From an uncultured Bacteroidota bacterium (GTDB lineage: Bacteria > Bacteroidota > Bacteroidia > B-17B0 > Aurantibacillaceae), in contig CAITNS010000058.1 in NCBI GenBank assembly GCA_903893815.1, forward strand, positions 62,001 to 126,000: a DNA stretch of 64,000 bases. Direction: 5' to 3'. This document shows, in pieces, positions 39,340 through 62,702 of the stretch. The translations under genes were made by a program, and so were the position numbers. The stretch's first letter is position 1; each line of letters opens with the position of its first letter. The notes under the pieces were generated by a model. That model searched no databases and was not told where the DNA came from. It worked only from the letters and a program-made list of their open reading frames with translations.

Positions 39340-39462
39340 ACCATATAAGGCATATAAGTTTTAGGTTATTTCTACTTATGCTTTATTAATTCTCGTTCTT
39401 TTTTATCTTTTATACCTACTCATTATTTTAAAGTTTTTGTTTTCTTATATGACTTATATGGT
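39340..39462. repeat. AACC-CATATAAG inverted-repeat element (word variant of the CACATAG class)
   Basis: ACCATATAAGGCATATAAG (39340-39358) / CTTATATGACTTATATGGT (39444-39462), one mismatch in 19. Confidence 0.8.
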
Positions 39463-51700: not shown

Positions 51701-52127
51701 ATTTACAATTTAATTATTTACAATTTTAAAAATTTAGCTACTTCTTACTATTTATTAAATTTTTCTTTGCAGTTATAGCCGAAGCAGCAAAGATTTTCTC
51801 TAGTTCTTTAGATTCAATTAATATTTTTTCAAATTCTGAATCTTCAATTTTATTATATGCTTTAATCAATTCTAACCAATAAACAGATTCATCTGACTCT
51901 TCTTCAACAATTTTTAATTTATTAATAAAGTCAGGTGAAGATTTAGCCTTACAAGCAGCTCTATAATTTGCTCCAACAGAAGATGCTGATCTGATCAATT
52001 GTTTTCCCATAACTTCATTAGCAACTGATTTTTTTAACAAATCCACTGTTTTAAAAGTCGTAAGAGCAAAGTCAAACGTTCTCTTTTTTAATATTTCAGC
52101 ATTTATTGCCATTTGTAAATTGTAAAT
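51701..52127. mobile_element. Candidate IVS-like cassette 1 in nuoM-nuoL spacer
   Basis: ATTTACAATTTA (51701-51712) exactly inverted at 52116-52127 around the four-helix-bundle ORF. Confidence 0.5.
51738..52112 (-). CDS. Four-helix-bundle protein (23S rRNA IVS-protein family)
   Basis: SASSVGANYRAACKAKSSPDFINKLKIVEEESDESVYWLELI family signature. Confidence 0.9.
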   Translation of the reverse strand: MAINAEILKKRTFDFALTTFKTVDLLKKSVANEVMGKQLIRSASSVGANYRAACKAKSSPDFINKLKIVEEESDESVYWLELIKAYNKIEDSEFEKILIESKELEKIFAASAITAKKNLINSKK

Positions 52128-54124: not shown

Positions 54125-54436
54125 TCAATTTTTCAATCTGCTTAATAAATCAATATCAATACTCTTGAAATTACGATACACCATCGATAAAATAGCTAAT
54201 CCTACTGCAACCTCAGCCGCTGCAACCGCCATAATAAAGAATACAAATACTTGTCCGTTTGCATCGTTGTGCAAGGTTGAAAACGCCACCAACATTAAGT
54301 TTACTGCATTTAACATTAACTCAATACACATAAAAATAATAATTGCATTTCTGCGAGCCATTACACCAACCGCACCAATAATGAAAAGCACTGCGCTTAA
54401 CATGATGTAATAATTAATAGGAATTCCGTTTAACAT
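54125..54436 (-). CDS. nuoK: NADH-quinone oxidoreductase subunit K
   Basis: [25 protein letters not shown]. Confidence 0.97.
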
Positions 54437-54449
54437 AGTATTTAAGAAT

Positions 54450-54883
54450 TAAGATTTTAGATTTAAGAAGTTTTGATTTAATTTAAGGTTTAGTGTTTTT
54501 AATGTTATTACGTGCTGTTTTTAATGATGATGCGAAAATAGCTGTTAGTTCATTACTTTCATTTAAAAGTTGTTTAAGTTTTTTTGGATCTTTAGTTTCA
54601 CTTGTTTCTTCAATAATTTCAAACCAAAATTGTGACTCATCTGATTCTTCTAATACAATATTTAATTTAGATATAAATTCAGCACTTGAACGACCTCTCA
54701 ATGCAGCACGATAATTAGCTGCAACAGAAGTAGAGGATTTAATTATTTGATACGAAATAACATCATTTGCTTTTGATTTTGGCAATTCATTTATAAATCG
54801 AATTGTATCAACGGCAAATTGTTTTGTTCTTATTTTTAAATCTACTTTCTCCACTTATGCTATTTCTTAAATCTAAAATCTTA
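54450..54883. mobile_element. Candidate IVS-like cassette 2 in nuoK-nuoJ spacer
   Basis: Perfect 20-bp inverted repeat TAAGATTTTAGATTTAAGAA (54450-54469) / TTCTTAAATCTAAAATCTTA (54864-54883) around the four-helix-bundle ORF. Confidence 0.6.
54483..54854 (-). CDS. Four-helix-bundle protein (23S rRNA IVS-protein family)
   Basis: SSTSVAANYRAALRGRSSAEFISKLNIVLEESDESQFWFEII. Confidence 0.9.
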   Translation of the reverse strand: MEKVDLKIRTKQFAVDTIRFINELPKSKANDVISYQIIKSSTSVAANYRAALRGRSSAEFISKLNIVLEESDESQFWFEIIEETSETKDPKKLKQLLNESNELTAIFASSLKTARNNIKNTKP

Positions 54884-55405
54884 CTTCGTATTTATATTTG
54901 TATCGCGCTTACCAATCATAATAGCGCCAACAAGAGCTGCTAATAATAAAACAGAGGCGATTTCGAATGGGAATAAGAATTCAGTAAATAATACTTTACC
55001 TAAATTTTTTACTAATCCAATTTGAGAAGCACCACCTTGAACTATTTGTAATTGCTCAGCACCCCTTAAAGCACCAATCATCACAAATAATAACATACCA
55101 CCGATAATAGCGGCAATGGCTCTTGTAAGAACATGCTTTCGAGGTTCTTCATCTGCATTTAAATTCATTAACATGATAATGTATAAGAACAATACCATAA
55201 TTGCTCCAGCGTAAACTACAATTTGTACTACCGCTAAAAACTGAGCATTTAATAATAAATAATGTCCTGCGATGCAGAAAAACGTCATAATTAAATATAA
55301 CGCTGAGTTTACTGGGCTACGAGTAAAAACCATCATTAAGGCAAACATAATTGCCATTAGTGATAATGTTCCAAAAAGCCATTGTGTAATAGAAAGTCCT
55401 AACAT
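54881..55405 (-). CDS. nuoJ: NADH-quinone oxidoreductase subunit J
   Basis: QIVVYAGAIMVLFLYIIMLMN. Confidence 0.95.
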   Translation of the reverse strand: MLGLSITQWLFGTLSLMAIMFALMMVFTRSPVNSALYLIMTFFCIAGHYLLLNAQFLAVVQIVVYAGAIMVLFLYIIMLMNLNADEEPRKHVLTRAIAAIIGGMLLFVMIGALRGAEQLQIVQGGASQIGLVKNLGKVLFTEFLFPFEIASVLLLAALVGAIMIGKRDTNINTK

Positions 55406-62054: not shown

Positions 62055-62128
62055 GTTGATTTAAGATTAAAGATTTAAGATTAAAGATTTTTACTTCCCA
62101 CTTCTAAAATCTGATTTCAAACTTCTTA
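62055..62128. repeat. nuoD-nuoC spacer word-repeat element
   Basis: GATTTAAGATTAAAGATTTAAGATTAAAGATTTTTACTTCCCACTTCTAAAATCTGATTTCAAACTTCTTA. Confidence 0.7.
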
Positions 62129-62620
62129 TCTTCCAAACATTTCATCTTTCTTATCCGTTCTTCCTTGATCTTCTAAAGGATATTCTTTTCTTAAAGGAAA
62201 AATATCCATTTCATCTACGTTTAAAATACGTTTTAAGTTTGGATGACCTTTAAATTTAACTCCAAAGAAATCGTAAGTTTCTCTTTCCATCCAGTTGGCT
62301 GCAGGCCATAAATCGGTTGCAGTAGCTACTTCAGGTTTATTGATATCAAAAAATATTTTTAAACGAATACGGTAATTTTTTGGCATGTTATGTAAATGAT
62401 AAATCACACCTAAGTGTTTCTCATCTGCTGTTTGCATGCCACATAAATCCGTTAAGAAATGAAAATTTAATTCTTCATCTTCTTTTAAGAATTTTAATAC
62501 GTCGTGTATTCTATCTTTTTGAATAGTAAAAACTGGGTAATCGTAAAGTAACTCCGCAGATTCAATATCTCCGTGGAAATGTTCCTTTAGTTTTTCGTTT
62601 ACTTTATTTAATAATTCCAT
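62126..62620 (-). CDS. nuoC: NADH-quinone oxidoreductase subunit C
   Basis: WMERETYDFFGVKFKGHPNLKRIL. Confidence 0.96.
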   Translation of the reverse strand: MELLNKVNEKLKEHFHGDIESAELLYDYPVFTIQKDRIHDVLKFLKEDEELNFHFLTDLCGMQTADEKHLGVIYHLHNMPKNYRIRLKIFFDINKPEVATATDLWPAANWMERETYDFFGVKFKGHPNLKRILNVDEMDIFPLRKEYPLEDQGRTDKKDEMFGR

Positions 62621-62702
62621 TTATTGATTAAAGATTAAAGATTAAAGATTAAAGATTTTTTATTTCTCACTTCTAAAATCTGCGTTCTAACTTCTTTATT
62701 TA
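62621..62702. repeat. nuoC-nuoB spacer word-repeat element, homologous to the nuoD-nuoC spacer
   Basis: GATTAAAGATTAAAGATTAAAGATTAAAGATTTTTTATTTCTCACTTCTAAAATCTGCGTTCTAACTTCTT. Confidence 0.7.

Follow-up and report, generated by a model that had tools for sequence, protein, structure and literature searches.

Between nuoJ and nuoK, in the nuo operon of the window (the whole 64-kb stretch of DNA analysed here), lies a small gene enclosed by an inverted repeat. What kind of element is this, how general is its arrangement and how is it related to the intervening sequences (IVSs) of 23S rRNA, in which the same protein family occurs?

Anatomy of the nuoJ-nuoK cassette

An initial reading made from the sequence alone had described a perfect 20-bp inverted repeat at this locus, TAAGATTTTAGATTTAAGAA at positions 54450-54469 being the exact reverse complement of positions 54864-54883. 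This is correct, and the match widens to 27 nt at 93% when the arms are taken as 54443-54469 and 54864-54890. No inverted repeat within 1.2 kb anywhere in the window is stronger than these arms; when the window was simulated 60 times with a Markov-1 model, the longest perfect inverted repeat was 17 bp (mean 14.4). The proposed placement between nuoJ and nuoK agrees with the ORF coordinates. The sole gene between the arms encodes a 123-aa protein that, as had been claimed, belongs to the PF05635 and TIGR02436 family, with scores that pass both cut-offs (46.8 bits against 33.8 for PF05635 and 74.3 bits against 24 for TIGR02436). There is no other gene between the arms and hence no transposase there. 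The components are as follows:

54450..54883, minus strand: the whole nuoJ/nuoK cassette, arm to arm (looser pairing, 54443-54890), identified by its inverted repeat and by the empty site in relatives
54881..55405, minus strand: nuoJ, upstream host gene, with a shorter C-terminus than in empty-site relatives
54864..54883, minus strand: 5' arm, upstream of the PF05635 gene, including the nuoJ stop codon (54881-54883); inverted repeat
54483..54854, minus strand: PF05635/TIGR02436 four-helix-bundle gene, 123 aa; profile matches, dN/dS 0.02-0.09
54450..54469, minus strand: 3' arm, downstream of the PF05635 gene, within a lag-7 array (54440-54469); inverted repeat
54125..54436, minus strand: nuoK, downstream host gene

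The cassette gene has a GTG start codon (ATG in one orthologue). In occupied genomes, nuoJ is without its usual last residues and terminates at a stop inside the arm. The suggestion that the nuo transcript would form the same long-range stem as an rRNA IVS is supported by folding, which predicts a closing stem between the arms (z -3.2). The predicted structure of the protein is poor (pLDDT 51). The feature is real and was rightly seen from the sequence, but it was understood only in part: both the period-7 make-up of the arms and a second cassette in the same operon, between nuoL and nuoM and with differing arms (ATTTACAATTTA.. / TAAATTGTAAAT), had been overlooked.

Further copies in the operon and the genome

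The protein of the second cassette also scores above both cut-offs (PF05635, 60.8 bits against 33.8; TIGR02436, 76.7 bits against 24). A lag-7 scan located two additional arrays in the window, on either side of nuoC and without a gene:

51738..52112, minus strand: second PF05635 gene, in the nuoL-nuoM spacer, with a 124-aa product sharing 47% identity with the first; profile matches
52116..52127, minus strand: 5' arm of the second cassette, core TAAATTGTAAAT on the plus strand
51701..51726, minus strand: 3' arm of the second cassette, ATTTACAATTTAATTATTTACAATTT on the plus strand
62057..62091, no strand assigned: gene-less heptamer array (GATTAAA type) beside nuoC; lag-7 scan
62619..62665, no strand assigned: gene-less heptamer array (GATTAAA type) between nuoC and nuoB; lag-7 scan

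Both gene-less arrays adjoin degenerate purine repeats and are probably remnants of further cassettes in the nuo operon. The window's genome contains ten PF05635 genes, most with their own, differing inverted repeats. A terminal sequence common to the copies, as is typical of ISs, MITEs and REP/RAYT elements, is absent: the arms differ among the ten copies. The two stretches that hold both window cassettes gave no Rfam intron match at the gathering score, and neither a reverse transcriptase nor a template/variable repeat stands out among the ORFs surrounding the cassette. Elsewhere in the window (39340-39462) an intergenic palindrome, ACCATATAAGGCATATAAG / CTTATATGACTTATATGGT, encloses an 85-nt loop that contains no gene. 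In a relative, the nuoL-nuoM spacer holds another kind of ORF, ORF6N-like by eye (locus L067, 6750-7297).

Inverted flanks at other PF05635 loci

To score terminal inverted repeats at other family loci, a check proposed together with the original observation, the 5' flank of each locus was matched against the reverse-complemented 3' flank of the same locus and against those of other loci. This mispaired control preserves both composition and family. The sample comprised 149 PF05635 loci: 67 from the genus of the window, 67 from the class Bacteroidia and 15 from plasmids (14 cyanobacterial and one from Riemerella). Own flanks pair far better than mispaired flanks. The genus loci, which include orthologues and hence are not independent, gave a matched score of 29.7 against 18.9 (p 6e-35), with a nearly flat direct-repeat control. 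The class loci, which are among the best-scoring family members and not a random draw, gave 35.1 against 17.5 (p 6e-38), and the plasmid loci gave 45.9 against 20.7 (p 3e-9). For control ORFs of 100-160 aa the corresponding values were 17.5 and 16.8. A score of at least 32 was reached by 72 of the 149 PF05635 loci and by 1 of 150 control ORFs.

The host operons are unrelated (nuo, tra, cas, nrd). Where both neighbours could be called, the gene lies in the same orientation as its neighbours on both sides at 63 of 64 genus loci and 46 of 52 class loci, while the opposite arrangement, with both neighbours reversed, was seen at no genus locus and at one class locus. The cyanobacterial plasmid set is less strict (9 versus 3). 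This sense bias suggests dependence on host transcription, or insertion via RNA. No relative was found in phage records, and no PADLOC defence family was matched. Some cyanobacterial plasmid PF05635 genes lie within CRISPR operons (in the cas6-cas4 spacer at L170 and L177 and in the cas10-cmr3 spacer at L184) and could be mistaken for CRISPR accessory genes.

The arms are copy-specific heptamer arrays

Within 20-100 nt of the gene, upstream as well as downstream, self-matches have maxima at lags of 7, 14 and 21, with lag 7 standing out against lags 8-13; the outer flanks show no such peaks. The heptamer units are locus-specific, with TAAGATTTTAGATTTAAGAA at nuoJ/nuoK and, for example, GCAATAAGCAATAAGCAA and TTATGAGTTATGAGTT elsewhere, TAGGGAGTAGGGAG in Nostoc edaphicum pNe_5 and CAGGAGTCAGAAGT in Nostoc ATCC 53789. 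The arms are C-poor when read inward. In a case from Gemmatirosa the arm period is 8.

Do the arms belong to the element or to the site? Among non-syntenic loci, cassettes with more similar proteins also have more similar arms: arm similarity is 18-19 in the background, 23 at 55-60% protein identity, 28 at 60-70% and 57 at 70% or above; over all non-syntenic pairs the Spearman coefficient is -0.02, the signal being confined to identities above about 55%. When plasmid cassettes of Nostoc, Aulosira, Trichormus and Scytonema from unrelated sites are aligned, homology begins about 71-82 nt upstream of the gene match, ends 33-42 nt downstream of it and so covers only the stretch bounded by the arms. 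These alignments show that the arms are part of the element and move together with the gene. In a separate observation, the proteins of two Bacteroidia loci (L202 in genome G060 and L153 in G081) are 63-73% identical to those of two cyanobacterial plasmid loci (L181 and L183) at unrelated sites, and some of these pairs also have similar heptamer arms. Judged from such similarity, transfer between the phyla is possible; contaminated Bacteroidia assemblies could also explain it.

Presence, selection and inheritance of the nuo cassette

An empty nuoJ-nuoK site, which the sequence-only reading had recommended looking for in relatives, was found. The spacer is occupied in 4 of the 18 same-genus genomes read (the window genome, G015, G010 and G014), and the cassette is absent from G019, the nearest relative of the window genome. 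In G001, a sister of an occupied genome, the spacer (L048) holds a different, G+C-rich palindromic element (CCTCCCCAACCCCTCC..GGAGGGG .. GGGGTTGGGGG).

Conservation is slightly higher in the cassette gene than around it, and the gene's low dN/dS values (0.02, 0.05 and 0.09) indicate strong purifying selection and hence a protein that is in use. In the four occupied genomes 20, 18, 15 and 19 of the 20 arm positions are paired; two positions have changed on both sides, in G014. Arm covariation in orthologous sets is weak, with these two two-sided columns at nuo and mixed results elsewhere.

The nuo cassette genes track the divergence of the species, while the site is empty in sister genomes; this combination calls for repeated loss or for allele exchange. 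All cassettes of the genus with at least 73% protein identity are syntenic and, because close homologues always are, movement there is old or rare. A gene fixed at this locus, vertically inherited and with no repeats at other family loci, would have told against a cassette. Inheritance in the genus is indeed mostly vertical, but it is patchy, and repeats elsewhere are the rule.

Empty sites and gene-less forms

The plasmids of cyanobacteria provide cleaner examples of insertion. Nostoc sp. ATCC 53789 has two plasmids with homologous operons in which cassettes occupy different spacers and each site is empty in the other plasmid; one of the two also carries a gene-less palindrome whose heptamers are of the family seen in that plasmid's own cassette. 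An empty site, AAAAAGTAATTAACAAATA, is shared by near-identical plasmids from Nostoc linckia, Aulosira and Tolypothrix; in Trichormus variabilis plasmid C it reads AAAAAGTAAT[cassette]GTAATTAACAAATA. The empty sites of these near-identical plasmids are free of palindromes, so that ready-made hairpins cannot have been the insertion target there. A direct repeat of 5 bp, GTAAT, is clean at one site only and could be a target-site duplication. TTCTA, considered for the same role, was downgraded to ambiguous, since it can also come from the right end of the element itself.

A TraM-linked site has all three kinds of allele, gene-bearing, gene-less and empty, and at one Bacteroidia site a relative of the window genome has a gene-less palindrome. 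With a strict intergenic mask, most tight-loop palindromes resembled terminators, and lag-7 arrays were used instead to count gene-less forms. Sampled stretches of 21 family-rich genomes contained 25 gene-less arrays in 914 kb and those of 19 genomes without the family contained 1 in 748 kb; genomes with any array numbered 10 and 1, respectively (Fisher p 0.003, a statistic that ignores phylogeny), and some family-rich genomes had none in the stretches sampled. One further locus (L248, 12646-13062) has a pair of heptamer arrays in inverted orientation, separated by about 390 bp in which there is no PF05635 match.

Relation to 23S rRNA intervening sequences

The sequence-only reading had called the nuo feature IVS-like, and two rRNA insertions bear this out, each having an S23p gene between pairing heptamer arms. 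On a plasmid of Azospirillum lipoferum, a PF05635 gene lies inside a 23S rRNA gene (RF02541, 2132 bits for the whole locus), and the arms of this insertion are heptamers, TCAGAGGACGGATGACAGAGGACGGAGGACAG and its inverse, with 66% lag-7 matches. The IVS of Coxiella burnetii is reported to have three GACAGAT repeats beside the S23p start and a 28-bp terminal repeat, and to be cleaved by RNase III at the first GACAGAT repeat (PMC4990558). It shares with the nuo cassette its protein family, a length of about 430 nt, terminal inverted repeats, heptamers beside the ORF and transcription together with the host gene (presumed for the nuo cassette).

The two also differ. The nuo cassette occupies an mRNA operon spacer and not an rRNA helix, so that a cut would part two coding regions instead of fragmenting an rRNA. 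In addition, the Coxiella S23p protein is considered expendable (PMC4990558) whereas the nuo cassette gene is clearly under selection. The idea that the element had moved from rRNA into an mRNA operon is not supported. None of 20 sampled PF05635 loci is in rRNA, and loci L001-L010, which include both window cassettes, gave no rRNA match. Since the operon-spacer form is the usual one, rRNA insertions look like a special case. The nuo feature is an IVS-type mobile cassette and a member of a large family with self-specific heptamer arms.

Comparison with other repeat systems

Tandem 7-nt units in intergenic DNA are a trait that the cassettes share with heptanucleotide repeat arrays of the STRR type. 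Heptamers have been described in Xanthomonas and Nostoc (GGGAATC and GGGGATT), with 70-75 convergent inverted pairs per Xanthomonas genome (PMC4692102). TAACTGA is found in Beggiatoaceae, cyanobacteria and Bacteroidetes (PMC4679880). The P6b stem of Nostoc tRNA-Leu introns is made up of 7-nt repeats (PMC4476775). The parts of these three papers considered here make no connection between the heptamers and a PF05635 gene, whereas in the present case they are the arms of a gene-bearing cassette. Among the portions of the literature covered, heptamers in one IVS are noted only in the Coxiella paper (PMC4990558), and a search for four-helix-bundle proteins together with inverted or tandem repeats returned no paper tying heptamers to PF05635 generally.

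Like REP/RAYT elements and MITEs, the cassettes are small, palindromic and intergenic, with gene-bearing and gene-less forms; unlike them, they have no transposase and their terminal sequences vary from copy to copy. Another parallel is Avd, the accessory protein of diversity-generating retroelements, a pentameric four-helix bundle thought to bind nucleic acid. PF05635 homologues are likewise pentameric four-helix bundles, but the reverse transcriptase and template/variable repeat of the Avd system have no evident counterpart around the cassette.

Proposed model and alternatives

We consider it likely that these loci represent a widespread family of small mobile cassettes in which copy-specific inverted heptamer arrays flank a single PF05635 gene. 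The cassette would insert in sense orientation, typically directly after a stop codon, in operon spacers, and the same family would occasionally hit 23S rRNA, giving the known IVSs. It would then ride on the host transcript, from the host promoter. There, the arms would pair into a long stem with the gene in the loop, leaving the neighbouring reading frames unharmed, and the stem may be cut by RNase III. A pentameric four-helix-bundle protein would be translated from the host transcript (there are five chains in each of the solved homologues, 2RLD and 2GSC). Most likely it would bind its own heptamer arrays, as RNA or single-stranded DNA, perhaps contacting one heptamer unit per subunit. That the protein serves the spread or maintenance of the element is the least certain step; no catalytic motif for transposition was identified in the cassette. 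Over time the gene would be lost while gene-less palindromes persist, and many of the heptamer repeats dispersed in cyanobacteria and other bacteria would be explained as such remnants.

The syntenic close homologues in the genus, their purifying selection and their sense orientation in operons would suit an ordinary host gene, a small operon regulator with a terminator-like or autoregulatory stem that is inherited vertically. Such a gene should not, however, be patchy with empty sisters, occur in operons as unrelated as nuo, tra, cas and nrd or be present as ten divergent copies in a genome; the empty sites in near-identical plasmids largely refute this explanation, which we regard as very improbable. 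It is harder still to credit that the inverted repeats are a gene-independent by-product of AT-rich, slippage-prone spacers, arising by chance or by polymerase template switching. This would allow for the weakness of some arms and for arms that, over long divergence, change together yet do not covary strictly column by column, but control ORFs from the same kinds of genome show almost no flank pairing, lag 7 is prominent over lags 8-13, and the same pattern recurs in GC-rich Azospirillum and, as a period-8 variant, in Gemmatirosa.

If the element is mobile, what moves, and by what means? The gene might insert into heptamer palindromes that are already present, by hairpin-loop targeting, the arms then being those of the target. 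The location of 23S IVSs at helix tips (PMC4990558), the existence of gene-less heptamer arrays and the different arms at every locus all fit this idea. Against it stand the clean empty sites without a palindrome, the similar arms of similar proteins even at unrelated sites and the homology that stops at the outer arm edge, and we judge it improbable. Alternatively, an enzyme encoded elsewhere (a transposase, an integrase or a reverse transcriptase) might move the cassette, with PF05635 as cargo or as a stabiliser, perhaps an RNA chaperone by which the stem is shielded or damage to the host is limited. The conservation of the protein, for which no catalytic activity is known, is compatible with this, as are the gene-less palindromes at distinct sites and a sense bias that could reflect an RNA route. 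A common enzyme would, however, find no shared terminal sequence to recognise, and heptamer arrays are nearly absent from genomes without PF05635; external mobilisation thus seems unlikely, if less so than hairpin targeting. The cassette model can also be taken further, to PF05635 as the sole mobility or maintenance factor of a new class of minimal element whose ends are a self-specific heptamer array. A toroidal pentamer would engage one heptamer per subunit (5 x 7 = 35 nt, approximately the arm length), and 23S IVSs and scattered heptanucleotide repeats would be its rRNA-inserted and gene-less forms, respectively. This extension is tentative and we lean somewhat against it.

Significance

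The cassette family, which has been little noticed so far, has relatives in Bacteroidota, in cyanobacteria and in one true 23S IVS. Current annotation labels its genes 'four helix bundle protein' or 'S23 ribosomal protein', and the elements would have spread without any recognisable transposase. Present in 122 of 149 sampled Bacteroidia genomes, the family would rank among the commonest small elements in that class. The cassettes bring together, in one testable system, three puzzles that have been treated separately: the purpose of the S23/four-helix-bundle protein in rRNA IVSs, the origin of these IVSs and the maker of the locus-specific heptanucleotide repeats of cyanobacteria, Xanthomonas and other bacteria.
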